Below are positions 1,251 through 40,706 of a DNA stretch of 41,441 nt, piece by piece. Position 1 is the first letter of the stretch. Each line of letters starts with the position of its first letter. A program made the translations under genes and the position numbers. The notes under the pieces are model-generated. The model searched no databases. It worked only from the letters and a program-made list of their open reading frames with translations, and was not told the origin of the DNA. The stretch comes from a virus. The stretch spans positions 1 through 41,441 of the IMG/VR virus record IMGVR_UViG_3300021952_000002, one strand, 5' to 3'.

Positions 1251-1276
1251 GGGGACGGATGGAATGTGCGCAGCGT
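1251..1276 (+). promoter_or_regulatory. half copy of the repeated early leader
   Basis: GGGGACGGATGGAA at 1251-1264, followed by TGTGCGCAGCGTT, matches the upstream half of the leader at 717 almost exactly. The CTGCAAAACTT part and hairpin are missing and no gene starts nearby. It opens the non-coding stretch 1209-1655. It could be a decayed leader or a DNA site working without the RNA part. Confidence 0.55.
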
Positions 1277-1324
1277 TGGCGCGGTTTGTGGCGTAGCTCT
1301 GCCACCTGGCTACTTAGCAAGTTG

Positions 1325-1420
1325 TTGCGTGGCGATGCTCTTGCGTGGCGTAGCTCTTGCGTGGCTAAGTCTTAGCGTGGCTAAGTCTTAGCGTGGCGTA
1401 GCTCTTGCGTGGTGATGCTA
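1325..1420. repeat. six tandem 16-bp repeats (iteron-like)
   Basis: Six direct units of 16 bp, consensus TTGCGTGGCGTAGCTC, start at 1325, 1341, 1357, 1373, 1389 and 1405. Units 3 and 4 share the variant GGCTAAGTCT, and a degenerate unit lies near 1287. The array sits in the largest gene-free stretch of the early region (1209-1655), beside short GC-rich repeats and an AT-rich segment at 1530-1615. That layout fits an iteron-type replication origin or a multi-site regulator array. No assay-level evidence can be read from sequence. Confidence 0.6.
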
Positions 1421-1496
1421 GACAGGGCTAAGCGATGGGGATCTAAAAATTGCGTGAGTGTGGAGCGGGTTTGCTAGCCATACCGATAGTTGGCAG

Positions 1497-1528
1497 CACC
1501 ACCTAGCCACCTCGCCACCTCGCCACCT
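1497..1528. repeat. four tandem 8-bp repeats
   Basis: Units CACCACCT, AGCCACCT, CGCCACCT and CGCCACCT run head to tail and lead into an AT-rich segment with a doubled CCGTTACA. Together with the 16-bp array upstream they make this intergenic stretch repeat-dense. Function unknown. Confidence 0.6.
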
Positions 1529-1574
1529 GGATTTTTGCCGTTACATAACCGTTACAACAAATCGAAAAAAGACA

Positions 1575-1612
1575 TTGAGTAAGTTGAGTAAGTTGAGTAT
1601 TTATGGCATAAT
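1575..1612 (+). promoter_or_regulatory. sigma70-type promoter with overlapping TTGAGTAAG boxes
   Basis: The -35 TTGAGT (1584-1589) and -10 CATAAT (1607-1612) are separated by 17 bp. The -35 lies within three direct copies of TTGAGTA(AGT) at 1575, 1584 and 1593 spaced 9 bp apart, so a protein bound there would cover the promoter. The same 10-mer occurs in reverse at 3572-3581 in front of the HTH gene at 3631. It probably drives 1656-3343. Confidence 0.65.
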
Positions 1613-1655
1613 AGAAGTAACCAAAAAGCACCACCTAAACCAAAGGAGCAAAATC

Positions 1656-2054
1656 ATGTACCAGAACACTTACGGCTATTTCGCAGCAGAAGAAATCGAA
1701 CAGGCGCTAGAGGATCAGGGCATTGCCCTGGAATACGACATTGAGCAACTAGGCGCTTACATTGATGCATTCGGTTGGCTAGGCAATGTTGAGTTGCCGG
1801 ACGGCACTCGCCGTCGTCAGTTTGCAGAAGAGGCGCTTGCCGACAACCTAGCCAAATGGGTTTACAACGCCAATGAATACCTCTACGCCGAAAACATTGA
1901 ATCGGGCGCGGCTTTTGCAGAGTACTACCTAGACAACTACGAAACAGAATTCCGTGTGCCGTCTTACTTGGTTGTCGATTACGAGGCAACTTGGGACAAC
2001 AACCTTCGCCACGATTTCGCGCTAGTAAACGGTTACGTCTTTACCGATAACTAA
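1656..2054 (+). CDS. ardA: ArdA-like antirestriction protein, short form (132 aa)
   Basis: ArdA proteins mimic the shape and charge of B-form DNA and block type I restriction enzymes. The start is ATG 1656 behind AAAGGAG; an upstream in-frame extension to 1458 would run through the promoter and is rejected. The C-terminal half matches the ArdA pattern: a helix with AAFAEYYLD, then a VPSYL segment, a DYEA motif (family FIDYEA-like) and a final NGYVF (about residues 85-130). The protein is very acidic, as DNA mimics are. It is shorter than usual ArdA (about 165-180 residues), and its N-terminal third does not match the first ArdA domain that I remember. First gene behind the promoter at 1575-1612, which suits an early anti-restriction role. 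Moderately sure of the family. Confidence 0.5.
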   Translation: MYQNTYGYFAAEEIEQALEDQGIALEYDIEQLGAYIDAFGWLGNVELPDGTRRRQFAEEALADNLAKWVYNANEYLYAENIESGAAFAEYYLDNYETEFRVPSYLVVDYEATWDNNLRHDFALVNGYVFTDN

Positions 2055-2060
2055 CCACTT

Positions 2061-2082
2061 GCCCTGGCTATGGCGCAAAACT
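2061..2082 (+). repeat. 22-bp motif after stop codon, copy 1
   Basis: This 22-bp stretch matches 41203-41224 at 20 of 22 positions. Both copies lie just downstream of a stop codon (2054 and 41186) in otherwise unrelated intergenic DNA. The core shared parts are GCCCTGG and TATGGCG followed by AAAACT. It may be a 3'-UTR element or a recombination scar. Confidence 0.5.
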
Positions 2083-2115
2083 AGCCACCACAACCAAACC
2101 AAAGGAGCAAAACAA

Positions 2116-2715
2116 ATGACTTACACTCACGAACTAAACGAAACCACCCGGATCAAGCTCGAGTACTACAGCCACGGCGTAGACCTGGAATACATGATCG
2201 GCGATTTGTCGGGCATGTCTGCCGGTGTGCTAGTAACCAAAATGGGTTGGGATCACGGAATCGTAACCGAAATAGGTGGCCTTTACTTGGCTAACGCAAT
2301 GCACTCTGCCGAAATCGATTCTGACGTATCACTCACTGCCGATGACTTGGAGCGAGCCGTAACCGACATGCTAGAGAGTGATTACCCTGGCTTAGGCGTA
2401 GGGCAATGGGAAACCGTTCGCGGTTACTCTCAAGGCGATGCTTGGCGCGTCTTTGTCTTTGCTCCAACTCAGGCGATACTCGATGACATTCTGCACGAGG
2501 TATCAGTTTGGCTGCGTGGTGACGTTTACGATGCCACCGTAGAGGAGCTAGTCACTTGGGCTAACCCTGAACACGGCACTCGCCAAACTTGGGAGGCAGT
2601 ACCTGACTACTCTTGCGTAACCGTTTGGGCTAGCAAAACTGACATTTACGTCCCTAGCCTCCACACCTGCCTAGAGGCGCTCGACTACGCCTTTGAACCT
2701 GAACCATCCAACTGA
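2116..2715 (+). CDS. actinophage-type hypothetical protein (199 aa)
   Basis: Start ATG 2116 follows AAAGGAG with good spacing. An extension to 2059 would begin in the repeated 22-bp motif and lacks a ribosome-binding site. The N-terminal half is beta-rich (ELNETTRIKLEYYS), and the middle contains a GYSQGDAWRVFVF segment (about residues 122-134) typical of a hypothetical protein family in actinobacterial phages. No catalytic motif, membrane segment or signal peptide is visible. It is the second gene of the unit starting at 1656 and precedes a long inverted repeat. Function unknown. Confidence 0.8.
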   Translation: MTYTHELNETTRIKLEYYSHGVDLEYMIGDLSGMSAGVLVTKMGWDHGIVTEIGGLYLANAMHSAEIDSDVSLTADDLERAVTDMLESDYPGLGVGQWETVRGYSQGDAWRVFVFAPTQAILDDILHEVSVWLRGDVYDATVEELVTWANPEHGTRQTWEAVPDYSCVTVWASKTDIYVPSLHTCLEALDYAFEPEPSN

Positions 2716-2728
2716 CCACCACAACCAC

Positions 2729-2768
2729 GCCTAGTGGCATTCAAAGGCTTATTTGGATGCCACTAGGC
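2729..2768 (+). promoter_or_regulatory. 12-bp perfect inverted repeat in the leader of the clamp-like gene
   Basis: GCCTAGTGGCAT (2729-2740) and ATGCCACTAGGC (2757-2768) are perfect complements, and two inner pairs can extend the stem. No U-tract follows, and the next gene starts 18 bases later at 2786. It could be an RNA processing or attenuation hairpin, or a dyad operator, rather than a terminator. Confidence 0.6.
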
Positions 2769-2785
2769 AAGATAAGGAATAAACC

Positions 2786-3343
2786 GTGAACACGATCACC
2801 AACTCCAACATGCATAAGCTCGCCAACCTAATCCACGTCTGTGAACCTGCCAACAAAGACTTTGGTTTGAGCCACGTCTGGATCACGTTCGATGAACTAG
2901 GTATCCACTCTCTCGCAACTAATCGCTACCTAGTTATGTCCACTTCGGTTGAGCAAGTGTTTGGCGATGCCGGAACTTACTTGCTTAGCCACGAGGCCGC
3001 AAAGTTTGTTTTCTCACAAAAGCGTTCAGACTTCGAAATCGAGTTTGACGTGGAGGGCGCAACCTTGAGCTGCGGATCAACGTCAATCCGTCTTGCGTCT
3101 GCCTTCGATCAACACCTCAAGCGAGCTAAACAACTTCGCGAGTACTTCGCCGAATGGAAACCTAGCGAGGGCTCACCTTCCGTGATGCTCAACGTAAGAG
3201 AGCTCGCGATCCTCAACAAGGTTGAGAAAAATACTTACTGGCAGTTTGAATCGGCAGCTGAAAAGTACCCTGGCAAACCGGCACCGATCCGTGTTTCAAC
3301 CACCAATTACGTAGGGCTACTCCAGCCTGGTTTGCCTCGCTAA
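2786..3343 (+). CDS. beta sliding-clamp-like (DnaN-like) protein (185 aa)
   Basis: Start GTG 2786 is preceded by ATAAGGAAT. The fold pattern resembles a bacterial beta clamp domain: a strand (HVWITFDE), then LATNRYLVM like the ATDRYRLA strand of DnaN, a GTYLLSHEAAKFVF helix, a strand-turn-strand (FEIEFDVEGATLSCGSTSIRL), and a C-terminal IRVSTTNYVGLLQPGL resembling the end of DnaN (YLMPVRL). A clamp encircles DNA and holds the polymerase on it. At 185 residues it has about half the length of host DnaN (about 375), so it would hold roughly one and a half domains and must oligomerise differently or bind partners only. No phage polymerase was found, so it might recruit host polymerase III. The assignment rests on remembered motifs, so it is tentative. 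Confidence 0.45.
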   Translation: MNTITNSNMHKLANLIHVCEPANKDFGLSHVWITFDELGIHSLATNRYLVMSTSVEQVFGDAGTYLLSHEAAKFVFSQKRSDFEIEFDVEGATLSCGSTSIRLASAFDQHLKRAKQLREYFAEWKPSEGSPSVMLNVRELAILNKVEKNTYWQFESAAEKYPGKPAPIRVSTTNYVGLLQPGLPR

Positions 3344-3434
3344 CAAACACCTATTTGTTGCCTAAAACAACAAAAAAACGCGTTTTTCACCTCGATCAGC
3401 GATTTCGCCAAAAGGGACATTAGAGTTGAGTATC

Positions 3435-3464
3435 TTGGTAATTACAAAGGAACTCAATTACCAA
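3435..3464. promoter_or_regulatory. 9-bp perfect inverted repeat, possible operator
   Basis: TTGGTAATT (3435-3443) and AATTACCAA (3456-3464) are perfect complements around a 12-base spacer. They lie just after a TTGAGTAT box (3426) and before CTATATAA (3474-3481). It is one of several symmetric elements in the AT-rich gap 3344-3630. Best read as a protein-binding dyad. Confidence 0.5.
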
Positions 3465-3514
3465 CTACTCTCTCTATATAACCCAACTAAAAAACTGCAA
3501 TTTACCTATAAAAT

Positions 3515-3534
3515 AAGGGTTTTTTAATACCCTT
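3515..3534. promoter_or_regulatory. short inverted repeat with T-run
   Basis: AAGGGT (3515-3520) and ACCCTT (3529-3534) flank TTTTTAAT in the gap between the clamp-like gene and the HTH gene. The stem is short and the T-run is in the loop, so it is a weak terminator candidate at best; a small operator is the alternative. Confidence 0.35.
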
Positions 3535-3570
3535 CAACCACACCAAACCATCAAAACACCTATTTTCTGT

Positions 3571-3612
3571 CACTTACTCAACTTACTTATGAGTAAGTTA
3601 GAACATTAGAAT
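3571..3612 (+). promoter_or_regulatory. promoter region with mirrored GAGTAAGTT boxes
   Basis: ACTTACTCAA at 3572-3581 is the reverse complement of the TTGAGTAAGT boxes at 1575 and 1584. A forward GAGTAAGTT follows at 3591-3599, and a plausible -10 TAGAAT lies at 3607-3612. No good -35 is visible, so the boxes may cover or replace it. The next gene (3631) encodes a HTH protein, an obvious candidate for autoregulation. Confidence 0.5.
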
Positions 3613-3630
3613 AAAAGGAGATTTCTCAAC

Positions 3631-4314
3631 ATGACTAAAAAGCTGCTCGACCCTGAACTTGGCGAACTGATCGACATTGACGGACTTAGCCAACTCACCG
3701 GCATCCCTAAAAGCACTATCCGTTCGTGGCGTAGAGAACAGTTTTCTCACCTGGCTAAAATCATCGGCTACAAGGCGAATACGTCTAGCATCGTCTGGTA
3801 TCGCCTGGATGACGTGAAGGCTTATTTGCGAGCTGAGGGCATCGATCCAGATACGGCTAACACGGCTCTATCCGCTGCGTACGAAGCACCTAACGCAATC
3901 AAAGCTCCACTAGGTGAACGCATCGATCCAAAGTCTTACAACGCTCTTTTGACGCTTGAGAAGATTCAGAAAGATAACCACTGGGACAAGTACGCATCCA
4001 CCCACCTAACCAACATGGGTTATGCGTCTGGCTACAACTTCCTAGCCGAATGCGCTAAAGAGGTGAACGCTATCTACTTCGGATCACCTGACCGTGACAC
4101 CTGGAATCTTTATGACAACTGGGATAAAGCACCTAAAGGTTATGAAGCTGCAAACCTTATTCCACGTTCGTTTATTGCGCGTGACTTCCTTGAGCGAGCT
4201 GCGTTCGAATCTCAGTTTTGGTTTGTCTGGGTGAACACTGCCCGACTAGCTCACGCCAAATACAACCACTTGCCGGTTACTGCCGAGCAAGTTTGCAAAC
4301 TACCAATCAACTAA
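3631..4314 (+). CDS. helix-turn-helix phage regulator (227 aa)
   Basis: Start ATG 3631 follows AAAAGGAG. The N-terminus carries an excisionase/MerR-like HTH: LSQLTGIPKSTIRSWRRE (about residues 19-36), then a short wing and a YRLDDVKAYL helix (about residues 58-67). The remaining 150 residues are rich in Trp and Tyr, have no domain I know, and may bind a ligand or partner. It is first in the long rightward replication operon, directly behind mirrored GAGTAAGTT boxes that also cover the promoter at 1575-1612. It may therefore regulate both promoters. The regulation is inference; the HTH is visible. Confidence 0.7.
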   Translation: MTKKLLDPELGELIDIDGLSQLTGIPKSTIRSWRREQFSHLAKIIGYKANTSSIVWYRLDDVKAYLRAEGIDPDTANTALSAAYEAPNAIKAPLGERIDPKSYNALLTLEKIQKDNHWDKYASTHLTNMGYASGYNFLAECAKEVNAIYFGSPDRDTWNLYDNWDKAPKGYEAANLIPRSFIARDFLERAAFESQFWFVWVNTARLAHAKYNHLPVTAEQVCKLPIN

Positions 4315-4334
4315 CCAAAGAATAGAGAACACTA

Positions 4335-4826
4335 ATGTCTAACCTGGGTAACGAAGCAACCGTATCCGCAACAACTGTCTGGCTTACTCCACCGTCTTTG
4401 TTGGCGAAGCTGGGTGAGTTTGACCTTGATCCTTGCAGTCCACTCAACCGACCTTGGGACACCGCTAAGCACCACTACAACGTTCACGATGATGGACTTG
4501 CTCAACCCTGGCTTGGCAGGGTTTGGATGAATCCACCTTACGGCCGTGGGATGGATCAGTGGATGGGCAAGTTGAAACAGCACAAGGCTGAAGGTGGCTC
4601 AGGTATTGCGCTTATCTTTGCTCGCACTGAAACTAAGACCTTTTTTGATTACGTCTGGGATGGCGCTGACGCAATCCTATTTGTAAAGGGCCGTATTCGG
4701 TTCTGTACGCCTGATGGTGAGGAAGCTGGCACTGCTGGCTCACCGAGCGTTCTAATCGCTTATGGAGCCGCTGAGGTTGATGCTCTACGCAACTGTGGTA
4801 TCGAAGGTAAGTTGGTGATTCTCTAA
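4335..4826 (+). CDS. phage DNA N6-adenine methyltransferase (Dam type, 163 aa)
   Basis: It transfers a methyl group from S-adenosylmethionine to adenine in DNA and probably protects phage DNA from host restriction. The sequence matches the short phage Dam family (PF05869): TVWLTPPSLLAKL at the N-terminus, FDLDPCSP, then the catalytic NPPY motif in VWMNPPYGRG (about residues 63-72), and FARTETKTFFDYVW and FVKGRIRF further on. Its length is normal for this family, which has a compact fold without a separate target domain. It overlaps the next gene by one base (TAATG). The recognition sequence cannot be read from the protein. Confidence 0.85.
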   Translation: MSNLGNEATVSATTVWLTPPSLLAKLGEFDLDPCSPLNRPWDTAKHHYNVHDDGLAQPWLGRVWMNPPYGRGMDQWMGKLKQHKAEGGSGIALIFARTETKTFFDYVWDGADAILFVKGRIRFCTPDGEEAGTAGSPSVLIAYGAAEVDALRNCGIEGKLVIL

Positions 4827-5173
4827 TGGGCAACAACTCTTACATCGTCATTGAGTCTGATTCTTTTGACGTGCCACTAGCGATCTACGGACACTGGGTA
4901 GGTGACGATAACGTGCGAGCAGTTGAGGACACGTTGCTAGTTACTGACCGTATTGGCGATGCGTCTTACCTAGCTGCGCAAATCTTCCACACGCTAACCA
5001 CTCAACATCACTATGACGGCAAGTCCGGTTTCGGTTTGAGTGTTGGCGATCCGTTCAATGCCTGGATCGATGCGCCTACCGTCTATGTCGATGCCGATAA
5101 GGGAGAATACTCTGTCGGTGGCGATGTCTGGTACGACCGCTGGGCTATGCCCATTGAGCGTACTTGCCGATAA
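4826..5173 (+). CDS. hypothetical actinophage protein (115 aa)
   Basis: The ATG at 4826 overlaps the stop of the methyltransferase (TAATG). The pattern is: an N-terminal strand (SYIVIESDS), a central amphipathic helix with AAQIFHTLTTQHHYDG, GFGLS, and a C-terminal pair of strands (TVYVDADKGEYSVGG). I recognise it as a common small family in actinobacterial phages without known role. No metal or catalytic motif is evident. A 14-bp perfect hairpin follows it directly. Confidence 0.75.
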   Translation: MGNNSYIVIESDSFDVPLAIYGHWVGDDNVRAVEDTLLVTDRIGDASYLAAQIFHTLTTQHHYDGKSGFGLSVGDPFNAWIDAPTVYVDADKGEYSVGGDVWYDRWAMPIERTCR

Positions 5174-5179
5174 ACAACA

Positions 5180-5218
5180 AATCCCCCGAGCTGCGAGAAC
5201 AAAACAGCTCGGGGGATT
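5180..5218 (+). terminator. 14-bp perfect hairpin (attenuator or terminator)
   Basis: AATCCCCCGAGCTG (5180-5193) and CAGCTCGGGGGATT (5205-5218) pair perfectly. Only ATTC, not a T-run, follows, and the next gene begins 13 bases on. It could end part of the transcripts within the operon or stabilise the upstream mRNA 3' end. Confidence 0.65.
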
Positions 5219-5231
5219 CACCGAAGGAACA

Positions 5232-5462
5232 ATGACCATGAAGCCATTCATCGGGCAACCACGCCGACACAATAAAGCATTACCGTTACATCGCTATTTG
5301 TCAAATCGTAAGCACCGAGCTAAGCGCAGGTTCGACATTCAAACCTGGCTTGAGCGCTTTGCTATCAGGTTTGCAGCTGTGGTGATGACCATAGTTACAC
5401 TTGCCCTTATCCGTTTACTACTAGCAATCTTCGATTCCCTACTACCTACTGGAGCCTTCTAA
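5232..5462 (+). CDS. small membrane protein (76 aa)
   Basis: Start ATG 5232 follows GAAGGAAC; a second in-frame ATG lies at 5238. The first 45 residues are strongly basic (HRYLSNRKHRAKRRF). One hydrophobic segment follows (FAAVVMTIVTLALIRLLLAIF, about residues 47-68), so it is a single-pass membrane protein with a basic cytoplasmic N-terminus. No family is recognised. It sits between a strong hairpin and the next gene, with which it shares a TAATG overlap. A role at the host membrane during takeover is possible but unproven. Confidence 0.65.
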   Translation: MTMKPFIGQPRRHNKALPLHRYLSNRKHRAKRRFDIQTWLERFAIRFAAVVMTIVTLALIRLLLAIFDSLLPTGAF

Positions 5463-5668
5463 TGAGTTTCTACGCAACACTTACCTACGCCAAAATCCGC
5501 GAAGGTAAAATCATCCGCACCTACGATCTGCGCCACAACGGTGACGTGGTTGCCGAGTTTGACACCATCAACAAGTCCCTCACCGAGATCAACTGGCGCA
5601 AGTCTGCATCCGAGGAAGTCCGCAACCTGGCTAACGCCAAGATGCTTGAGGAGTTGGCTAATGCCTAA
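5462..5668 (+). CDS. small hypothetical protein (68 aa)
   Basis: The ATG at 5462 overlaps the previous stop (TAATG). The protein has a beta-hairpin-like N-terminus (FYATLTYAKIREGKIIRTYDLRH) and a helical C-terminus with KSASEEVRNLANAKMLEELANA. No motif is recognised. It overlaps the next gene by 8 bases, consistent with a tightly coupled operon. Confidence 0.65.
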   Translation: MSFYATLTYAKIREGKIIRTYDLRHNGDVVAEFDTINKSLTEINWRKSASEEVRNLANAKMLEELANA

Positions 5669-5906
5669 GCCTCTTATCAAGCGCATCCGTGACGTACTGG
5701 TTGAGTGCGAATGGAAACCAAAAAATGTCGGAGCCGTTCTATACACTTACGTCAAAGGCGATTTCGAGGTAGACGTTGTGCCGAGCCTAAACAACAAGTT
5801 TTTGTTTACCATAACTAAATACTCGAAAATCCCTGTATCTAACGCTATGCTGTTAGATAGCGAAGAAGTCGTTCAACATCTTCGCAACCCTCGCATCAAG
5901 TACTAA
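5661..5906 (+). CDS. small basic hypothetical protein (81 aa)
   Basis: Start ATG 5661 lies inside the end of the previous gene behind GAGGAG. A longer frame from 5541 would lie almost wholly within that gene and is rejected. The short protein is beta-rich with basic N-terminus (PLIKRIRDVL) and has YVKGDFEVDVV and FLFTITKY strands. No family is recognised. Confidence 0.65.
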   Translation: MPKPLIKRIRDVLVECEWKPKNVGAVLYTYVKGDFEVDVVPSLNNKFLFTITKYSKIPVSNAMLLDSEEVVQHLRNPRIKY

Positions 5907-5930
5907 CCACTAAACCAAAGGAATGAGATC

Positions 5931-6317
5931 ATGAGTGAAATCAACTCAGTTCTGGATCAGCTCATTGCTGATGCCAAAACTACCCTTATCACCGGCAAGC
6001 CAAAGGCTACTGCCGATGACCGCAAGTCGGTTGAAGCAGCCGACCCAATCCTGGCTAACGAGCTGCTGGCTCAGCGTTCAGACATTGACGAGCAGATCAA
6101 GGCTCTCACCGCTCAGAAGAAGGCCATTGACGACATCTTGAAGGATGCCATCGGCAAGGATGAAGTCCTGCTGGTGAACGGCGCTGAGGTGGCTTCCATC
6201 TCTCGCTGGCGTGAAACTCAGTTGAACACCGAGTTCATCAAGGAAAACTTCCCTGTGGCTGACTACCCTGAGATGTTTTCGCGCGTATCCAAGTCCCGAC
6301 TCAACATCAAGCGATAA
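5931..6317 (+). CDS. recombination-module accessory protein, putative (128 aa)
   Basis: ATG 5931 follows AAAGGAATGAG. The centre is a coiled-coil helix (LANELLAQRSDIDEQIKALT onward, about residues 41-75). A beta segment comes next, and the C-terminus (WRETQLNTEFIKENFP then SRLNIKR) resembles the tail of proteins found beside YqaJ/RecE-type phage nucleases. It lies upstream of an SNF2-type helicase and of an exonuclease 4 kb on, so a structural role in recombination or replication is plausible. No catalytic residues are visible; the role is inference. Confidence 0.6.
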   Translation: MSEINSVLDQLIADAKTTLITGKPKATADDRKSVEAADPILANELLAQRSDIDEQIKALTAQKKAIDDILKDAIGKDEVLLVNGAEVASISRWRETQLNTEFIKENFPVADYPEMFSRVSKSRLNIKR

Positions 6318-6319
6318 TC

Positions 6320-6580
6320 ATGGGCGCTTACGACTTTGAGATGGAAGTTGCCGAGTACGCCGAGGCCGAGCAGATTGAGGCTCAGCGTGTTGAGGACGGC
6401 TTGAGCGAGGTATCGCTTCAGTATGTCTTTGACACAATCGATAACCTGTTCAAGGACTTCACTGCTAAAGCTGACAGTTTCATCGCCAGTGCCAAGCCTG
6501 AACCTGTTGAAGGTGACGGCATCCTGATGCAGGAATCGTTCTGCCTCCCTTGTAACCGACTTTGTGATTGCAATGACTAA
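6320..6580 (+). CDS. small acidic protein with C-terminal Cys cluster (86 aa)
   Basis: ATG 6320 comes two bases after the previous stop. The protein is strongly acidic and helical (EMEVAEYAEAEQIEAQRVED) and ends in CLPCNRLCDCND, a tight Cys cluster that might bind a metal. It overlaps the helicase gene by 8 bases. Function unknown; possibly a partner of the helicase. Confidence 0.65.
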   Translation: MGAYDFEMEVAEYAEAEQIEAQRVEDGLSEVSLQYVFDTIDNLFKDFTAKADSFIASAKPEPVEGDGILMQESFCLPCNRLCDCND

Positions 6581-8111
6581 CCCAATTACTGAAACAATCC
6601 TGTTTCCGTATCAGGTTGTGGCTGCTGAGAGGATCGCACAGCAACGTGCGGTTCTCTTGGCAGACCAGCCTGGTCTGGGTAAGACTTTGGAAGTTATCGG
6701 CGGCCTTGAGTTGGCTGGGTTGTTTTCTGAATACAAGGTGACAACTAACATCTTGGTGCTAACTCCCATCGTGAACGCTCGCACCACCTGGATTGATGCC
6801 CTAGAACGCTTTGTAGCGCCTCACTACGCCATCAACATCATTGACCTGTCTGTTGGTACGTCTAAGGCTAAAACACAGCGCCTAGAGGCTGACTGGGTGG
6901 GTGATGGCATCAACATTGTTGTTGCTAACCACAATGCTCTCGACTACTCAAGGAAGGGCTGGCGTGTTGAGTTCCCATCGGTTAGTTGGGATGCGGTTAT
7001 CGTTGATGAATCTCACCTAGTGCTACCTATCGGAGCTAAGCAGACTAACTTCCGTACCGCACTAAACAAGCTGCGGATGTATCACGATGGAGCGATCCGT
7101 ATTGCCATCTCTGGTACGCCTGACCGTGGAAAGTTGGAGAATCGCTTCGGAACCTGGTCTTTCCTTTATCCGAGCATTGTTGGAATGAATCGCTATGCCT
7201 GGCTTGAGGACAACTTTTTTATGGTTGAGCAACGAGTATCGGCTAACCGCACTATCCGTGTTCCTTACACTCTCAAAGATGAACGGCGCTGGCAGATCTT
7301 CAGTAACAAGTGGATGATTCGCCGGACTAAATCTGAGGTGCTGGCTCAGTTGCCTCCGAAGCGTTACATTGACGTTGAGTTGGATTTGCTTCAGGATCAG
7401 CGTGTTGATTACCTGATGGCGCAAATGGAGTTTGAAGAGGCTCTGAGTGAGTCGGAGAGCAACTCAACTTCAGCTGCAATGCTATTTGCCCTGCGCTCAC
7501 GCCAGATTGCTGTATGCCAGTGGCGTGAACAGGATAACCAACTACTGCCTGTTGTCGGTGGTGCATCGATCAAACTGAACTGGTTGCTTGAGTGGCTTGA
7601 TGAACGAGGCTTCATTGTCGCTGATGCAAACGCTGACAACGAGGCAAAGGTTGTGATTGTTAGCCAGTTTTCTCGAGTGCTGCATTGGCTCAAGACCGAG
7701 TTGGCAAACCAGGGTATCGAAGCCCAAGTGCTTGATGGCAAGACTAGCGCCACTAAGCGAACCGAGATTCAAGATCGATTCCAGAACGGCAACCTGCGTA
7801 TCGTCTTGCTCTCTGGCTCGATGGGTGTTGGTATCAACCTTGATAAGGCTGATGACCTGATTATGCTCGATAGCCCTTACGACCCAGACCGGATTGAGCA
7901 GATTGAAGATCGTGTCCACCGAGCTTCAAGCATCCACAACGTAACCATCTGGAACCTGATGGCTAAAAGCACTATCGATGTTTCGATTGCCGAAACCGTG
8001 AGTAAGCGTTACCAAACAACCAGGAAACTGCTTGACGAAGATCGTGGCGTGTCTATTGGTCGTGATGTTCTCAAGCGCATCAAAGCTATAAAGGAAGAAA
8101 CCAATGAGTGA
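6573..8111 (+). CDS. SNF2-family DEAD/DEAH-type helicase (512 aa)
   Basis: ATP-driven DNA translocase of superfamily 2. ATG 6573 overlaps the previous gene; GTG 6564 is an alternative. Motifs in order: LFPYQVVAAERIA (Q-like region, residues 9-21), Walker A ADQPGLGKT (about 30-38), LTPIVNARTTW (motif Ia), Walker B VIVDESH (about 142-148), ISGTPDRG (motif III), then the second RecA domain with VVIVSQFSRVLHWLK, VLDGKTSATKRTEIQDRF, VLLSGSMGVGINLDKAD and QIEDRVHRASS (motif VI, arginine finger). Length and motif spacing fit phage SNF2-like helicases used in replication or recombination. It is followed by several tiny genes that overlap end to start. Confidence 0.9.
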   Translation: MTNPITETILFPYQVVAAERIAQQRAVLLADQPGLGKTLEVIGGLELAGLFSEYKVTTNILVLTPIVNARTTWIDALERFVAPHYAINIIDLSVGTSKAKTQRLEADWVGDGINIVVANHNALDYSRKGWRVEFPSVSWDAVIVDESHLVLPIGAKQTNFRTALNKLRMYHDGAIRIAISGTPDRGKLENRFGTWSFLYPSIVGMNRYAWLEDNFFMVEQRVSANRTIRVPYTLKDERRWQIFSNKWMIRRTKSEVLAQLPPKRYIDVELDLLQDQRVDYLMAQMEFEEALSESESNSTSAAMLFALRSRQIAVCQWREQDNQLLPVVGGASIKLNWLLEWLDERGFIVADANADNEAKVVIVSQFSRVLHWLKTELANQGIEAQVLDGKTSATKRTEIQDRFQNGNLRIVLLSGSMGVGINLDKADDLIMLDSPYDPDRIEQIEDRVHRASSIHNVTIWNLMAKSTIDVSIAETVSKRYQTTRKLLDEDRGVSIGRDVLKRIKAIKEETNE

Positions 8112-8268
8112 TCACGCAGAGAATGTTCGAGAGTACTATCGCCGTCAAGGTGATGCCCGAACCATAGAACGCATCATCAAACTTCTAGACCAACAATCAA
8201 AGTTTCTTGAGCGTGGGGACTTCCGTAAAGATTTACTTATCGCTCTTATCAAGGGAGAACAGAAGTGA
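8104..8268 (+). CDS. very small helical protein (54 aa)
   Basis: ATG 8104 lies within the end of the helicase gene (8-base overlap), and the stop at 8266-8268 overlaps the next GTG. The protein starts MSDHAENVREYYRRQGD and its C-terminal half reads IIKLLDQQ, then LIALIKGEQK. The neighbour at 8265 has IIKLLEALQ and PIALIKDTE at matching places, and the DNA TATCGCTCTTATCAAGG occurs in both. Probably a short paralogue. Function unknown. Confidence 0.65.
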   Translation: MSDHAENVREYYRRQGDARTIERIIKLLDQQSKFLERGDFRKDLLIALIKGEQK

Positions 8269-8585
8269 GCGACTACACACCAACAACAGCGACACCTACG
8301 ACAGAGCAAGTGCGTATCGCTTTTGCTACACACACAAACGGAGGATGGGCTGAAATCAGCCCCGGTCTTGGAGAACTTTTCGACCGTTGGCTTGCTCAGC
8401 ACGATGCCGAGGTTGCCGAAGCAAAAGAAAAAGCAATCATCAAACTGCTAGAGGCTCTACAGACACATAAAGAATGTTTTGGCGAACATCACGAAGATTG
8501 GGTTTGGAGCAGTCCAGCAGGAATTATCGAAGTCTTGACTAAATGGGATAGCGAACCTATCGCTCTTATCAAGGACACAGAATGA
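8265..8585 (+). CDS. small hypothetical protein, paralogue of the preceding gene (106 aa)
   Basis: The GTG at 8265 overlaps the previous stop (GTGA). After a Thr-rich N-terminus comes a helix (RWLAQHDAEVAEAKEKAIIK), then a His/Trp-rich part (KECFGEHHEDWVW), and a tail PIALIKDTE resembling the end of the 54-residue neighbour. The IIKLLE...IALIK layout is one I have seen in small actinophage proteins of unknown function. Part of the tightly overlapping operon. Confidence 0.7.
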   Translation: MSDYTPTTATPTTEQVRIAFATHTNGGWAEISPGLGELFDRWLAQHDAEVAEAKEKAIIKLLEALQTHKECFGEHHEDWVWSSPAGIIEVLTKWDSEPIALIKDTE

Positions 8586-8662
8586 AGCACTTATCTATGA
8601 CTGATTTCGGTCACTTGCTTTACAGCATCGTTTACTGGGTTCACGCCTACCGAGCTATTTAG
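8582..8662 (+). CDS. possible micro-ORF (26 aa)
   Basis: ATG 8582 overlaps the preceding stop in the ATGA style used throughout this operon, and TAG ends at 8662, 12 bases before the next ATG. The peptide MKHLSMTDFGHLLYSIVYWV is aromatic and mildly hydrophobic. It fills the only gap in an otherwise gapless run of genes, but at 26 residues it may not be a functional gene. Confidence 0.35.
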   Translation: MKHLSMTDFGHLLYSIVYWVHAYRAI

Positions 8663-8674
8663 AAGGAGAAACAA

Positions 8675-8833
8675 ATGCCAACCTGGAAGGATCAAGACAT
8701 GAATGAACTTCGAGACGACATGATTCGAATGATGCAGGTCTACGCTAACGAGATCGGAATCCCATTGCATCAGATCATGCAGCTCGAGCAGAAGATGTCT
8801 GCTGAGTTTGAGTGGGTAACAGCAAATGACTAA
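8675..8833 (+). CDS. small helical protein (52 aa)
   Basis: ATG 8675 follows a very good ribosome-binding site (AGAAGGAG, 8-base spacing). The peptide is Met-rich and helical (MNELRDDMIRMMQVYANEIG, then QIMQLEQKM), which suggests a small coiled-coil. It overlaps the next gene by 8 bases. Function unknown. Confidence 0.65.
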   Translation: MPTWKDQDMNELRDDMIRMMQVYANEIGIPLHQIMQLEQKMSAEFEWVTAND

Positions 8834-9509
8834 GACCTATGCCGTCAAGACAACTATTGAGGAAGTTCTCAAAGCTGCCGAGTTTCGTGGCGATGAACCT
8901 CAGCCTGAGTTCTGCAACATTGAACGTTGCGGACGTGAGGCAGTTGTTATGTCTCTTTGCAATGCGCACTACCACCGATACCAGCGTTACCTGCAAGCTA
9001 ACCCACGAGCGCCTCGCAGGGACATCGGATCTGAACGCATTGCTGAAGTGATGCACTACATGATTGAGCCTGTTGGCCCGCACGAAATCAAAGTAAAGGA
9101 TTTGAAGTGTCACGTCCCTGGTTGCTATGGGCGTAAATACGAGGCACGAGGCCTTTGCCGGATGCACTACTCTCGCTTCGCCAACGCAGCTCGCAGAGGT
9201 GATGTTGTTGATCCAGAAGGTCGTATCAAGAAGTCACCCAAAGAGAGAATCCCTACACGGTCTTACATGCGCAAGGATGCGGATAAACTCTCAGGTACGC
9301 AAGAAACCATTGTGAACTTCATCTTGGATTGCAACGCTGAGGGCTTTGGCCCATCGTATAAAGACATAATCGAACACATCGGACTCAGTTCAGTATCGAG
9401 CGCCCACTATCACCTAAAGCGCCTTGAACATCTTGGCTGGATCAGGATGGGCGATGGTCGAGCTAGGCGTGTTGAAGTTTTGAAAGGAATAGAAAATGAA
9501 GATAGGTAG
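8826..9509 (+). CDS. zinc-finger protein with LexA-type winged helix (227 aa)
   Basis: Two related Cys/His motifs lie in the first half: CNIERC with SLCNAHYHRYQRYL (about residues 31-57) and CHVPGCYG with GLCRMHYSRF (about 99-122). Each looks like a CxxxxC...CxxHY zinc site. The C-terminal 75 residues match the LexA DNA-binding domain: LSGTQETIVNFILDC, then PSYKDIIEHIGLSSVSSAHY, HLKRLEHLGWIRM and GRARRVEVL. The LexA autoprotease domain is absent, so it cannot self-cleave in an SOS response. It probably regulates phage or host SOS-type promoters. ATG 8826 overlaps the previous gene, and its end overlaps the methyltransferase. Confidence 0.75.
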   Translation: MTKTYAVKTTIEEVLKAAEFRGDEPQPEFCNIERCGREAVVMSLCNAHYHRYQRYLQANPRAPRRDIGSERIAEVMHYMIEPVGPHEIKVKDLKCHVPGCYGRKYEARGLCRMHYSRFANAARRGDVVDPEGRIKKSPKERIPTRSYMRKDADKLSGTQETIVNFILDCNAEGFGPSYKDIIEHIGLSSVSSAHYHLKRLEHLGWIRMGDGRARRVEVLKGIENEDR

Positions 9510-10086
9510 CCTGTTCTCTGGCTATGGTGGTCTAGACATAGCAGTATCCGCTATGACTGGCGCAACCGTTGCTTGGCATTGCGAGTTTGATGCAGCACCG
9601 AGCAAGATTCTGGAAGCCCGATTCCCTGGTGTTCCAAACTATCAGGATGTCACTAAGGTGGACTTTACTCAGGTTGAACCTGTGGACATCCTAACTGGCG
9701 GTTTCCCCTGTCAAGACTTATCGCTGGCTGGAAAACGAGCTGGCATCAAAGACGGTACACGAAGCGGACTTTGGAGTGAATACGTCCGCGCAATAAAAAC
9801 TCTTCAACCAAAACTTGTAGTAATCGAAAATGTTAGGGGACTCCTAAGTGCAAAAGCAGACAATGGTATGGAATACGCAGAAGAAGATCTGGCAGTATTT
9901 GGATCCAAGCCTCCCATCCGAGCAATGGGTGCCGTTCTTGGAGACTTGGCAGACCTCGGGTACGATGCACGATGGATTGGTCTCAAGCGCAACGAAGAGT
10001 TGAAGGCTTGCGGTAACGGTGTTGTACCTCAGCAGGCGATGCTTGCTCTGAGCATCCTTTTGGAGGGGATTGACCTTGGCAACTAG
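9496..10086 (+). CDS. compact C5-cytosine methyltransferase lacking the TRD (196 aa)
   Basis: C5 methyltransferases methylate cytosine using S-adenosylmethionine. Motif I GSLFSGYGGLD (residues 4-14), motif IV GGFPCQDLS with catalytic Cys (about 74), motif VI VVIENVRGLL (about 108-117), and the closing GNGVVPQQA (motif X region, about 173-181) are present. After LGYDARWIGL the sequence jumps directly to KRNEELKACGNG. The stretch with motif VIII (QRRRR-like) and the target-recognition domain, about 100-150 residues in normal enzymes, is therefore missing. The GAAAGGAATAG site precedes ATG 9496. Without a TRD it may be inactive, work with a partner, or methylate with relaxed specificity. Confidence 0.85.
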   Translation: MKIGSLFSGYGGLDIAVSAMTGATVAWHCEFDAAPSKILEARFPGVPNYQDVTKVDFTQVEPVDILTGGFPCQDLSLAGKRAGIKDGTRSGLWSEYVRAIKTLQPKLVVIENVRGLLSAKADNGMEYAEEDLAVFGSKPPIRAMGAVLGDLADLGYDARWIGLKRNEELKACGNGVVPQQAMLALSILLEGIDLGN

Positions 10087-10357
10087 GGTTACGTTCAAAT
10101 CTGGCTCAAACAAACTTGTAGGTAAGACTTTTGAGTTTTCGCCAGATGACATGCACCAGTGGTTTCCAATGTTGGAGAACTTGCTAGCATCGGCTGGCTA
10201 CCAGAAGCATCTACTCTCTTATCGTTGGAATCCAAATAACGATCGAGTAAACATTGCCTTTGTGAATAATGGCATTTCTTCTACTCCCATTGCTGAGTTT
10301 GTTATTGACCACACAGACAATGGTGCTAGACTAAACGAACCAACCAAGGAGAACTAA
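10076..10357 (+). CDS. small hypothetical protein (93 aa)
   Basis: TTG 10076 is preferred because GGAGG (10062-10066) lies at good distance; TTG 10070 is too close. The protein starts ATRVTFKSGSNKLVGKTFEF, then has a helix with MHQWFPMLENLLASAGYQKH, and strands with VNIAFVNNG. No family is recognised. It overlaps the methyltransferase end and the exonuclease start (TAATG). Confidence 0.65.
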   Translation: MATRVTFKSGSNKLVGKTFEFSPDDMHQWFPMLENLLASAGYQKHLLSYRWNPNNDRVNIAFVNNGISSTPIAEFVIDHTDNGARLNEPTKEN

Positions 10358-11103
10358 TGCCAATCGCAATCAACGGAATCCGGAAGTCCGAATGGACAGC
10401 CGATGATGTTGCTGCTGTAAAGACCGCTGAGCGATGGATGACTCGCATCCCTGAGTTTTTCATCACTGAGCGTTCCTACCAGAAGCAGATTGGCATCTCT
10501 GAGGTTGGCTCGGATTGCCGTAAATGCGTAGCTCGCAAACTCGCTTTGAAACCTAAGCAGGTTTCTGGTGGTTGGTTCCCTTACGTTGGTACGGCAGTCC
10601 ACGCCTCGCTTGAAGAAGGCTTCGGCAAGTACGAGTCGGATTACTACCTTGAGAATCGTCTCCAGGTTTGGGAATACAAAGACCTCGTGCTTGGTGGCAG
10701 TTGCGACATGGCTGCCGTTCACATTGATTCTGATCGTCTAGTTGTAAACGATTGGAAGATTGTCGGAGATTCTGGGATTGCTGATGCCGCTAGGGGCAAA
10801 GTAAAAAACCAGTACCGGATTCAAGCAATGCTTTATGGCTTGGGCTGGGTAAATAAGGGTTTGACCCCCACCCATGTTGCCTTGTCTTTCCTCCCGAGAA
10901 ATCAGGACTTGGACAAAGCCCAGGTTGTAATGTTCCGTTATGATGAGTCAATCGCACTTGAGGCTCTTGCTTCACTCAAGGTGATGATTGATGCAGCTGA
11001 GATTATCGGCTGGGATGAAGTCATTGCGAAACAACCTACGGGATCGTACTGCTTCGATTGCAGGCGATACTCGCAGGGCGATGATGTATCATCGCTAATC
11101 TAA
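10357..11103 (+). CDS. PD-(D/E)XK exonuclease, RecB/Cas4-like (248 aa)
   Basis: A phage recombination nuclease degrading DNA ends. The core is GGSCDMA (catalytic Asp, about residue 129), LVVNDWKIVG (the D..K half of the PD-DxK signature, about 139-148), and QYRIQAMLYGLGW (QxxxY motif, about 164-176). An N-terminal SDCRKCVARKL and a C-terminal CFDCRRY may form an iron-sulfur or zinc site as in Cas4/AddB-like nucleases. YVGTAVHASLEEGF is the usual helix with His before the core. Together with the SSB-like protein directly downstream it forms an exonuclease/annealing-type recombination or replication pair. ATG 10357 overlaps the preceding stop. Confidence 0.85.
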   Translation: MPIAINGIRKSEWTADDVAAVKTAERWMTRIPEFFITERSYQKQIGISEVGSDCRKCVARKLALKPKQVSGGWFPYVGTAVHASLEEGFGKYESDYYLENRLQVWEYKDLVLGGSCDMAAVHIDSDRLVVNDWKIVGDSGIADAARGKVKNQYRIQAMLYGLGWVNKGLTPTHVALSFLPRNQDLDKAQVVMFRYDESIALEALASLKVMIDAAEIIGWDEVIAKQPTGSYCFDCRRYSQGDDVSSLI

Positions 11104-11140
11104 CTGAATAACGAAACTGAATAACGCAACTGAATAGCAA
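11102..11140. repeat. three direct 13-bp repeats
   Basis: AACTGAATAACGA, AACTGAATAACGC and AACTGAATAGCAA run head to tail from 11102, starting inside the stop codon of the exonuclease. They fill most of the 71-base gap before the SSB-like gene. They could be an operator or an RNA element for that gene; no -10/-35 pair is evident. Confidence 0.6.
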
Positions 11141-11174
11141 ACGAAAAAATCGAAACAGTATCTAAGGATAAATC

Positions 11175-11786: not shown

Positions 11787-11801
11787 GACAGAACAAGCCA
11801 A

Positions 11802-11840
11802 GAAGGCGCAATCGTTTCCCCCAACGGTTGCGCCTTCTTT
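11802..11840 (+). terminator. rho-independent terminator
   Basis: GAAGGCGCAATCGTT (11802-11816) pairs with AACGGTTGCGCCTTC (11823-11837) through 15 bp with one U-G wobble, loop TCCCCC, followed by TTT. It separates the SSB-like gene from the primase-helicase, whose ribosome-binding site GAAAGGAAC comes soon after. Confidence 0.85.
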
Positions 11841-11860
11841 ATCCCCTGAAAGGAACATAA

Positions 11861-14969: not shown

Positions 14970-14980
14970 TCGCTTGAACG

Positions 14981-15053
14981 CGCGAAAAAGTGTGCTAAAT
15001 GTAGCGTAGAACCTGTGAAAATAGTAGTTTTTCGCGTTTACGCGCTAAAACGC
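14981..15053. terminator. inverted repeats at convergent gene ends
   Basis: CGCGAAAAA (14981-14989) and TTTTTCGCG (15028-15036) are complementary over 9 bp around a 38-base spacer. A second hairpin GCGTTT/AAACGC (15034-15039, 15048-15053) overlaps the end of the leftward phosphoesterase gene. They could act as a bidirectional terminator, but the stems are weak. Confidence 0.4.
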
Positions 15054-18476: not shown

Positions 18477-18482
18477 GTTATC

Positions 18483-18488
18483 ATTGTA
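18483..18488 (-). promoter_or_regulatory. -10 box of a leaderless promoter (leftward fibre operon)
   Basis: On the minus strand TACAAT is followed by GATAAC and then the ATG at 18476. A start of transcription 7 bases downstream of the hexamer would be the A of the ATG. The -35 region is weak (GTCGTCT-like). The site lies inside the 37-base divergent gap to the rightward resolvase gene. Confidence 0.5.
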
Positions 18489-25820: not shown

Positions 25821-25821
25821 G

Positions 25822-39026: not shown

Positions 39027-39034
39027 TTAGATCT

Positions 39035-39769
39035 CTATTCGTCAATAGTGATAATGTTCGCCTCAACCTCTATTGTAGTCGGTTCAGGCAAAGCAGCGAA
39101 ATGGGATTGCCCAGTGGCAAGCGCAATAAGTTCACGCGCAATGTTTCGCTTAGTCGGGCCGTCAGTGACATGTCTTAGGATGATGTCCTGGACTTGGAGC
39201 AGGATTGCAGGCAAGTCAATCTGCTGTTTAGCATTTGGATCAAAGCGACCAGTGAGCTGATTCAAGAACTGAATCGCCTTCATGTCACCCTGCTGAACCA
39301 GGTCACCCAGCGCCTTATCAGCCATTGGGATGTAAGCCTTCAAGTTGTCGGCAGACTTAGCCGACATCGCCCCAGCAAACTCCTTCTGGCGCATCCAGCC
39401 ATCCAACTCATTAGTGGTGATTTTGAGTTGTTTAGCAATGGTCTGAATCGGTTTCAGGTTTACCGGACTCAGGTACGCCTGAAGAAGCATCTCCTGACGC
39501 AGAGTGAGATTAGGGTTCTTAGTGGTACGGATGCCGCGATCCTCAAGAGATCTCTGGAACTTAGTAGAGGCCCATACAAGTTCGATGTCAGCACGATCAA
39601 GAGTTTCATCTTGATCCAAAATAACCTGCGTCTCCAAAAAGAGTCCCTGACGATCCGCTGCAATAGCAGCTGCGAGGACACGTTCATAGAGCGCCTGTTC
39701 TCTGGTCTTGCGTTCGGAAGCGAGTCTGGACTCGAACTTGGAAACATCGTACTTAGCCGTTTCGCTCAA
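39035..39769 (-). CDS. terS: probable terminase small subunit (244 aa)
   Basis: It binds phage DNA and guides packaging. TTG 39769 is chosen because GGGAG lies about 10 bases upstream; TTG 39778 is too close to it. After a helical N-terminus there is a HTH region (LTLRQEMLLQAYLSPVNLKP, IQTIAKQLKITTNELDGWMR, about residues 88-128), followed by helices (MADKALGDLVQQGDMKAIQF, LNQLTGRFDP). This order (HTH, then AL..LV..GD..A...L...TG..) is typical of small terminases. It is more than 18 kb from the large subunit and on the other strand, which is unusual. The alternative is a regulator. Confidence 0.55.
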   Translation of the reverse strand: MSETAKYDVSKFESRLASERKTREQALYERVLAAAIAADRQGLFLETQVILDQDETLDRADIELVWASTKFQRSLEDRGIRTTKNPNLTLRQEMLLQAYLSPVNLKPIQTIAKQLKITTNELDGWMRQKEFAGAMSAKSADNLKAYIPMADKALGDLVQQGDMKAIQFLNQLTGRFDPNAKQQIDLPAILLQVQDIILRHVTDGPTKRNIARELIALATGQSHFAALPEPTTIEVEANIITIDE

Positions 39770-40061
39770 TGCGGTCAATCTCCCTATTGATGTACCAGAT
39801 AGCCTTCTTCAAGTCCTGGACATTGCTACTGCCATCCTTCAAACCAGCTCGCCATAAGTACTTGATGGCATTACCGATTGTGAAGTTGCGATGCTCAGTA
39901 ATCTGAATGCACTCCACGCCAGAAGGATCTGAGACATAGTGCTTTGGATGATTGATTACGTCATGGGGGTAGTGAGGCTCAGTCTTATCCTTTGTGGTGG
40001 GAACCAAGCCCTGCTCAGCCCAAGACTCACGTTGCTTCTGAATGTGGTTATGCAAGCTCAC
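39753..40061 (-). CDS. DUF3310 protein (102 aa)
   Basis: GTG 40061 overlaps the previous gene (GTGA). The DUF3310 pattern is clear: HPKHYVSDPSGVECIQITEH, then FTIGNAIKYLWRAGLKDG, and DLKKAIWYINREIDRIER (about residues 37-99). Such small phage proteins are often listed beside nucleotide kinases; biochemical role unproven. It overlaps the small terminase gene by about 17 bases. Confidence 0.88.
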   Translation of the reverse strand: MSLHNHIQKQRESWAEQGLVPTTKDKTEPHYPHDVINHPKHYVSDPSGVECIQITEHRNFTIGNAIKYLWRAGLKDGSSNVQDLKKAIWYINREIDRIERNG

Positions 40062-40561
40062 GAGCGAGGCAACCTCTCTAGTTCGGTGATGTATTCAGCA
40101 GTAAAACCGTAAGGCCCGAAAGCCTCCAACATTTTAGATGCTAGACCATCAGGTAATGAATGTAATTTTCCAGACTCATAGTTGCGGACAATCGCAGGGT
40201 TGATACGAAACATACTCGCAAACGCCGTCTGAGTAGGAGCAACCTCCGAGCGCCACTGCGAAAAAGTCTTGTAATACTGCCCCAACGTATACGGAGGAAT
40301 CAGCATAAGGTTCTGCGCAGAAGGGCGCAGTTGCGGACGCAAAGGCTTCGCAGACCACAACTCAATCTCCTTGCCAATCGAGCGGTCGCCAAGGATAGCG
40401 CCCAACTTATCGGCAAGGACTGGGGACAACGTACGAGTTCTACCATCCTCAATAGCGGTGATAGCAGAGCGTTGAACGCCAGCCTTAGAGGCGAGAGCCT
40501 GCTGGCTCAGATTGCTCCGAAGCCTAGCCAAACGAAGCGGATGATCGGGGATTCTGCTCAT
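40058..40561 (-). CDS. double helix-turn-helix (XRE-type) regulator (167 aa)
   Basis: First gene of the leftward operon. The N-terminal XRE domain is canonical: RLARLRSNLSQQALASKAGV, then QRSAITAIEDGRTRTLSP (about residues 10-47). A second HTH lies in the C-terminal half (FSQWRSEVAPTQTAFASMFR, then INPAIVRNYESGKLHSLPDG, about 100-140). Two XRE folds in one chain would allow a monomer to bind like a dimer. ATG 40561 has no Shine-Dalgarno site but a TATGCT 6 bases upstream, so the mRNA is probably leaderless. Without integrase it need not be a lysogeny repressor; it may time early versus late transcription. Confidence 0.8.
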   Translation of the reverse strand: MSRIPDHPLRLARLRSNLSQQALASKAGVQRSAITAIEDGRTRTLSPVLADKLGAILGDRSIGKEIELWSAKPLRPQLRPSAQNLMLIPPYTLGQYYKTFSQWRSEVAPTQTAFASMFRINPAIVRNYESGKLHSLPDGLASKMLEAFGPYGFTAEYITELERLPRS

Positions 40562-40567
40562 GATACA

Positions 40568-40573
40568 AGCATA
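40568..40573 (-). promoter_or_regulatory. -10 box of a leaderless promoter (leftward operon)
   Basis: On the minus strand TATGCT, then TGTATC, then ATG (40561). Transcription would begin at the start codon. An extended CAGT before the hexamer and CTGTCT 16 bases upstream are the only hints of a -35. It drives the regulator and the lysis genes leftward. Confidence 0.55.
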
Positions 40574-40636
40574 ACTGATTTAGATGTTAGACAGGTGTTG
40601 CAAATGTGATTTTTGGGGGAGGGTTGCTAGATAAAA

Positions 40637-40706
40637 GGGGACGGATGGAAATCTTTCACAACATCAGACCTGCAAAACTTGTCTTGTCAGCCAAACAAGG
40701 CTGGCA
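40637..40706 (+). promoter_or_regulatory. repeated early leader, copy 1
   Basis: GGGGACGGATGGAA at 40637-40650. CTGCAAAACTT starts 33 bases later at 40670. The hairpin has arms TGTCAGCC (40685-40692) and GGCTGGCA (40699-40706); the stem is 8 bp with one U-G pair. The inner stem bases differ from the other copies on both sides while pairing is kept. AAGGAG and the ATG at 40731 follow. Confidence 0.75.

Follow-up and report, generated by a model that had tools for sequence, protein, structure and literature searches.

Morons are single phage genes with their own promoter and terminator, which are inserted or lost as units. The host takeover module of phage SPO1 is mostly made up of small early genes with promoters, clustered in a terminal region (PMC6873191). 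For cluster K mycobacteriophages two kinds of repeats have been described: the start-associated sequence (SAS) is a GGGATAGGAGCCC-like element at the ribosome-binding site, 3-7 bp away from the start codon, and the extended start-associated sequence (ESAS) is a 17-bp imperfect inverted repeat (PMC3203893). Both were surveyed in 2025 (PMC12699233). The repressor of cluster A mycobacteriophages is a single polypeptide with two DNA-binding domains and a 13-bp asymmetric consensus site whose orientation matters (PMC9283540). Here we study a related arrangement in IMG/VR record IMGVR_UViG_3300021952_000002, a phage contig of 41,441 nt that was analysed over its whole length (the window) and that wraps by a 127-bp end repeat, as a preliminary description of the sequence had assumed. 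Small gene cassettes follow one another in this window, each behind a copy of an asymmetric 14-mer, box A (GGGGACGGATGGAA), and a gene for a regulator with two helix-turn-helix (HTH) domains lies divergent from the array. We consider box A to be the asymmetric site of this regulator, which would activate each cassette separately; we put the probability of this reading at roughly 55%.

Box A occurs four times in the window, all in the same orientation (starts at 40637, 41284, 717 and 1251, in the following elements 1 to 4). It is exact in elements 1, 3 and 4 and has two mismatches in element 2. Allowing up to three mismatches we found 6 sites compared to 2.4 expected, and 3 of 100 shuffles reached 6; what goes beyond chance are the three exact 14-mers. 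The preliminary description had proposed a shared leader with a second part, box B, behind box A. Box B alone is not beyond chance: with up to two mismatches there were 24 matches against 17.6 expected and 11 of 100 shuffles reached 24. The striking feature is the placement of its exact copies at 4 (= 41318), 750 and 40670, each of which starts 33-34 nt past a box A start. The shared leader is thus real for elements 1 to 3, where we observed the same order throughout: box A, box B, hairpin and ribosome-binding site, then one small gene or two, and finally a terminator or a stem resembling one. Element 4, which lacks both box B and a nearby gene, had been overlooked, and the gene previously drawn from 717 really starts at 799, position 717 being the start of its leader. 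Each unit had also been credited with a strong terminator of its own. The terminator scan called those of cassettes 1 and 3, with scan totals (1 and 4) not above shuffles (1.4 and 5.2), whereas the stem of cassette 2 (folding energy -23.7 kcal/mol) is followed by only four T and was not called.

A search for the two-part pattern in related phage genomes had been suggested as a check. In IMG/VR the pattern matched 108 stretches; of the 113 occurrences that we inspected five lie in copies of the window and none of the other 108 belongs to a relative, so the string is unusable as a probe for relatives. A megablast search of window positions 1-20000 against the phage collection gave no match and protein searches with two cassette genes gave no relatives in IMG/VR. 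A primase scan returned five distant loci, which were not used. The major head protein gave 137 relatives, 80 of which were kept, and 43 of these 80 records were passed to the box A search. Box A was present within one mismatch in 15 of the 43, clustered and in a single orientation; the control, the same pattern reversed, gave a single match. G040, G041, G042 and G043 subsequently proved to carry variant spellings. In G028 and G037, both fragments, neither regulator nor box A was found, and many of the other non-matching records are fragments as well.

A profile scan with the regulator alignment yielded 54 loci, so that together with the window 55 records were examined for box A. Four of them, with at most 73 nt upstream, were set aside. 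In every one of the remaining 51 records (window included), which hold at least 209 nt upstream, a generalised box A lies 62-239 nt from the regulator start. These records include near-copies and their effective number is about 27. The pattern is therefore not absent from related phages. They bear out the proposal that a control element specific to the phage recurs ahead of independent units of one or two genes, often with a terminator before the next unit. Among the 38 records with at least 2.5 kb, 35 hold two to five copies of box A and three hold one, and the copies of an array usually share a single orientation.

We then scanned 12 long records of 41-46 kb, whose completeness is not given, with a matrix of 22.5 bits built from the regulator-linked sites. 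Forty sites above the threshold were located in arrays and one outside. The 40 probably include one site of G038 twice, once from each end of its contig, and they miss the first elements of G041 and G043, whose scores are under the matrix cut. The spelling of box A is largely uniform within a genome and varies between genome groups (GGGGACG, GGTGACG, GGGAACG, GGGAATG and AGCAACG), with a few genomes mixing GGGGACG and GGGAACG. First elements contain ACAACAT within 50 nt past box A in 50 of 51 cases, compared to 0 of 93 for all others. In some elements of one clade (L303, L309, L311, L312, L331 and L333) GATGAT or GATGCT repeats of varying length lie between box A and the promoter. Three box A spellings had no match in the literature searched, most subscription journals lying outside it.

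The regulator was present in 20 of the 22 related records read; the two without it are fragments. Pfam places an HTH_3 domain at residues 9-58, and positions 95-137 of the family profile match an MBF1-like HTH (E value 2.4e-4); the Pfam matches are of HTH_3 type only, with no AraC-type HTH domain among them. The AlphaFold2 (AF2) model, with a mean predicted local distance difference test (pLDDT) score of 92.4, predicts the second domain as a full HTH (helices 100-107, 111-117 and 122-130) and we took helix 122-130 as the second recognition helix. Two such domains would suit an asymmetric site. For residues 4-72 most proteins returned by the fold searches had a single HTH; that cluster A repressors were absent from the results excludes nothing.

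Changes in the regulator are accompanied by changes in box A. R or K at residue 126 goes with G at box position 4 in 89/89 sites and S126 with A in 45/56. At position 3, T was seen in 11/11 sites of K126 regulators, though it also occurs four times elsewhere. For residue 122 we observed A together with T at position 6 in 29/29 and P together with C in 115/116 sites. In a quick tree from which the co-change columns were left out, there are two changes of residue 126 and one of residue 122, and box positions 3, 4 and 6 change three times, twice and once, respectively. By our reading of this tree the residue and box changes fall on matching branches, with one subclade reverting to G at position 4. 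Overall it appears quite probable that the regulator binds box A. It would do so as a monomer, each half-site being taken by one HTH, and the site would span about -51 to -38 relative to the predicted transcription start.

It is improbable in our view that another factor (a host protein, or a sigma factor with box A as a far -35) binds box A and that the linkage to the regulator reflects synteny only. The group-specific spelling points to a phage-encoded partner, and of the HTH-type proteins among the scanned window proteins only the regulator recurs in 20/22 related records, compared to 8/22 for a weak MerR-like protein at 3631 and 0/22 for a LexA-type one at 8826. The points on the side of another factor are that the spacing differs in the clade with GATGAT spacers, that the co-change is confounded by descent and that the scans for DNA-binding domains covered part of the window proteins (20 by Pfam, 20 by PHROGs). 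As a specific candidate we considered an extracytoplasmic function (ECF) sigma factor reading box A as its -35; this was ruled out, as conservation extends over 14 bp and TGGAA belongs to the parts that vary least.

We next consider the promoters. Only box A is strongly conserved in sequence, and box B is most likely a degenerate -10 hexamer instead of the second specific box that the two-part leader implied: its counterpart is AAACTT in the window and TAGATT, TAAATT, TATAAT and others elsewhere. The best -10-like hexamer lies 35-39 nt past the box A start in 21/46 nonredundant first elements (shuffled mean 3.8) and in 30/82 other elements (shuffled 7.4), with 14 more of the latter at 40-44 nt (shuffled 7.3). 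TAnnnT at 34-42 nt was observed in 17/50 first, 22/50 middle and 12/35 last elements against a background of 0.083. The -10 score, the box A pattern and the nonredundancy cut (80% identity) were all picked after the sequences had been seen. The element list for the logo, the -10 counts and the cassette counts holds one likely coding stray (L319 1314), which is excluded from the matrix and the TAnnnT counts at 34-42 nt, and sites more than 3.2 kb from the regulator were left out of the counts, losing at least one (L331 3225). An ungapped logo of the elements shows no clear -10 because its position varies by a few bases; the count of the best hexamer per element reveals it. Directly 5' of the first box A, GCTAgATATA looks by eye like a promoter, a reading that the TAnnnT counts did not support.

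For the -35 the best match was no better than in shuffled sequences (2.38 vs 2.45 and 2.26 vs 2.32 of 6), and at least four of six bases matched in 0/47 non-first and 4/29 first elements. The centre of box A lies at -44.3 and -45.3 relative to the predicted start, so the placement of the -10 leaves box A centred near -44, an activator position. The combination expected of a class II-like activator promoter, i.e. an activator-type site, a missing -35 and a preferred distance to the -10, is thus seen as an enrichment, with the GATGAT-spacer clade excepted. Past the -10 the sequence has a better fold than its shuffled versions (mean z -2.80 for 29 elements and -1.66 for 48), and terminator-like stems stand upstream of 60/82 non-first box A copies compared to 31.6 in shuffles.

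Judged from the position of box A, activation appears moderately likelier than repression. Once bound, the regulator would bring the RNA polymerase of the host to promoters with a -10 (box B) and no -35, and each cassette would be switched on separately, often with a terminator ahead of the next one and with a hairpin at the 5' end of the mRNA. The regulator may be made first, because its own -10 sits near its start codon: in 20/51 records, including the window, its best -10 (TATAAT, TATACT, TATGCT or similar) lies 6-7 nt ahead of the annotated ATG, a count without a shuffled control. This spacing suggests a leaderless mRNA.

Several observations weigh against activation by the regulator at box A. 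The -10-like hexamer is at its preferred place in fewer than half of the elements in both counts given above, so that the fixed distance of the preliminary description survives as a preferred spacing in related phages, an enrichment without the strictness of a rule. In the window itself AAACTT makes a poor -10 and a weak case. Last elements carry TAnnnT (the 12/35 above) though they are mostly without a close gene. In the GATGAT-spacer clade the best -10 is about 54-98 nt from box A, a poor fit to a fixed class II geometry. For the co-change, one S126 subclade mostly retains G at position 4, and columns 82 and 114 (position 4) and 19 (position 6) track the split equally well or better; with three events only and other columns that correlate as well, the co-change is not statistically conclusive.

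The absence of a close gene behind most of the last box A copies would also be compatible with a second view of the same protein, namely that it is a repressor with box A as its operator and shuts the cassettes off. Proteins of the HTH_3 type whose genes diverge from early genes frequently act as repressors. Among known DNA-binding modes the closest likewise belongs to a repressor, the one of phage TipsytheTRex, which binds an asymmetric site as a monomer with two DNA-binding domains (PMC9283540); the cassettes would then be controlled like the targets of cluster A immunity repressors at operators and stoperators. We nevertheless regard repression as rather unlikely, since box A is clear of the predicted -10 and start and lies, at the preferred distance, upstream of the -35 position, and since its sites are confined to the array instead of spread genome-wide. 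Furthermore the Pfam families tyrosine integrase (PF00589), serine recombinase (PF00239) and AAA_31 (ParA-type, PF13614) were each matched in 0/12 of the long records.

What follows box A differs strongly between genomes. A gene with a ribosome-binding site starts a median of 96 nt (interquartile range 88-101) past box A in 81/95 non-last elements. Such a close gene follows 6/51 last elements, which are not all true last ones as some records are truncated. The 87 cassette genes fall into 39 families, 24 of them singletons, with unrelated genes behind the same element; they are hypervariable and mostly acidic (median net charge -7 per 100 residues). When 40 representatives were scanned, Pfam matches were obtained in two families and PHROG matches in six, for one member each. 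One cassette gene (L289:3338-3928) was assigned by eye and probably belongs to a family with weak sliding-clamp matches.

In one case we could observe a cassette that is present or absent at box A. A unit from box A to box A occurs in G003 (702 bp) and G005 and is missing from G002, where the flanks at the junction overlap by 28 nt, consisting of box A, the 2 nt before it and the 12 nt after it. G002 and G003 also differ within the first cassette, and the difference in the unit may reflect either gain or loss. Taken alone, such a unit would fit box A as a mere recombination joint, i.e. a boundary sequence spread via cassette exchange and without a regulatory role. This seems very improbable given the preferred distance to -10-like hexamers, the lacking -35 and the group-specific spelling. 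If box A is the activator site, the common copies may in addition supply the homology for cassette gain and loss.

The viruses that carry box A arrays probably infect actinobacteria. A search of GTDB genomes for the head protein, limited to two short peptide patterns, detected neither a prophage nor a host, so the host was deduced only from distant phages of Arthrobacter, Microbacterium and Cellulosimicrobium. Tentatively, the array can be seen as an open cassette platform in virulent actinophages, in which hypervariable acidic genes, probably with anti-host or anti-defence roles, are swapped at box A and any newcomer comes at once under one dedicated two-HTH activator of the phage. Gene turnover would then need no new regulation. 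If this is true, box A offers a sequence handle by which uncultured actinophages can be searched for rapidly evolving genes of host takeover or anti-defence, genes that seldom have a recognisable family. It would also represent a compact pair of phage activator and promoter, and would show a way for a phage to keep swapping accessory genes yet retain their control.

Table 1. Features of the box A array and its surroundings in the window (positions of the 41,441-nt stretch).
Feature	Position	Strand	Basis or remark
Regulator gene, 167 aa, two HTH (XRE/HTH_3 type) domains, candidate box A binder	40058..40561	-	Pfam, profile, AF2 model, relatives
-10 hexamer TATGCT of regulator gene, 6 nt ahead of ATG	40568..40573	-	suggests leaderless mRNA
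Box A, element 1 (first element)	40637..40650	+	pattern match
CACAACATC in element 1, contains the ACAACAT motif of first elements	40657..40665	+	motif count
Box B, element 1; AAACTT at 40675-40680 read as -10 hexamer, alone a poor TAnnnT match	40670..40680	+	
Hairpin at predicted mRNA 5' end, element 1	40686..40705	+	z -2.76 vs shuffles
Cassette gene 1, 151 aa, without relative in the searches made	40731..41186	+	
Intrinsic terminator, cassette 1	41229..41264	+	terminator scan
Box A, element 2, spelled GGGGACGAGTGGAA	41284..41297	+	2 mismatches
Box B, element 2 (= 41318-41328); AAACTT at 9-14	4..14	+	
Hairpin, element 2	19..38	+	z -2.72 vs shuffles
Cassette gene 2a, 93 aa; relatives with 30-59% identity in 6/22 related records	63..344	+	
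Cassette gene 2b, 96 aa; without relative among 22 related records	332..622	+	
Terminator-like hairpin, cassette 2 (four T behind)	636..666	+	fold energy; uncalled by scan
Box A, element 3	717..730	+	exact match
Box B, element 3; AAACTT at 755-760	750..760	+	
Hairpin, element 3	766..784	+	z -2.19 vs shuffles
Cassette gene 3, 116 aa, without relative in the searches made	799..1149	+	
Intrinsic terminator, cassette 3	1180..1199	+	terminator scan
Box A, element 4 (last, without cassette gene; next gene about 405 nt further)	1251..1264	+	exact match
Promoter-like TTGAGT-17-CATAAT ahead of the following operon, contrast case	1584..1612	+	scan total not above shuffles

Other noticeable characteristics of the window lie past the array. 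Degenerate GTGGCGTAGCTCTTGC-type repeats are visible by eye at 1280-1440, past the last box A. Also by eye, TTGAGTAAG-type direct repeats were seen at the TTGAGT-17-CATAAT promoter (1574-1612) and CACTTACTCAACTTACTTATGAGTAAGTTA at 3571-3600, ahead of the gene at 3631; these two sites look like another operator. A 132-aa protein encoded at 1656-2054 shows a weak match to a PHROG annotated as anti-restriction (E value 1e-4). The protein at 8826-9509 combines an HNH-like N-terminal part with the LexA-type DNA-binding domain (E values 1e-9 for PHROG and 1e-11 for Pfam) and has no relative among the 22 related records. An Rfam search of the window at gathering thresholds gave no matches, and no tRNA was found.

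MarA, SoxS and RamA are AraC-family proteins encoded on bacterial chromosomes, and the likeness to the regulator predicted here is that of a monomer with two HTHs. The geometry of the promoters appears closest to MarA/RamA-type activation (PMC8811837), whereas the protein in question is of XRE/HTH_3 type, belongs to a phage and sits beside its cassette array, activation being deduced. In terms of DNA recognition the two-domain, monomeric cluster A repressors (L5, TipsytheTRex) come closest (PMC9283540). Box A shares with stoperators the asymmetric site of 13-14 bp in one orientation. However, stoperators are numerous, genome-wide and serve immunity, while box A sites form one array upstream of -10-like hexamers in genomes where the temperate functions searched for were unmatched. 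The Stoperator domain of the cluster A repressor lacks helix 2 of the HTH; the second domain is here predicted as a full HTH, the structural comparison covering mainly residues 4-72.

The analogy drawn earlier to SAS and ESAS extends to short oriented repeats before many small non-structural genes and fails beyond that. SAS lies 3-7 bp from the start codon, whereas box A starts a median of 96 nt before it, and in contrast to the inverted repeats of ESAS (PMC3203893) box A is a single asymmetric 14-mer of which box B is not the inverse. The array also resembles the SPO1 module, for which a shared dedicated activator site is not mentioned in the available part of the report (PMC6873191). With their own predicted promoter and terminator and their variable presence the cassettes are moron-like, but they stand in a row and have a common promoter type linked to a regulator.

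A possible distant counterpart exists in Arthrobacter phage Jasmine. This podovirus has a terminal repeat of 1330 bp and belongs to a set of phages that has been described as primarily lytic (PMC5513430). Homologues of the regulator were found in Jasmine and Brad (26% identity by tblastn) and in Casserole (by profile). They lie divergent from two GGTGGATATATACCGNNTGGAA-like elements within the terminal repeat, one of which is ahead of an Lsr2-like gene; in Jasmine (L335) the GGTGGATATATACCGNNTGGAA element is at 260-282 and 1083-1105. It shares the TGGAA end with box A and, in one copy, CGGCTGGAA, whereas its left half and the first recognition helix differ and there are two elements only. The element may be the counterpart of box A. 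Overall, the array is neither an SAS/ESAS set nor a stoperator set as these have been defined.

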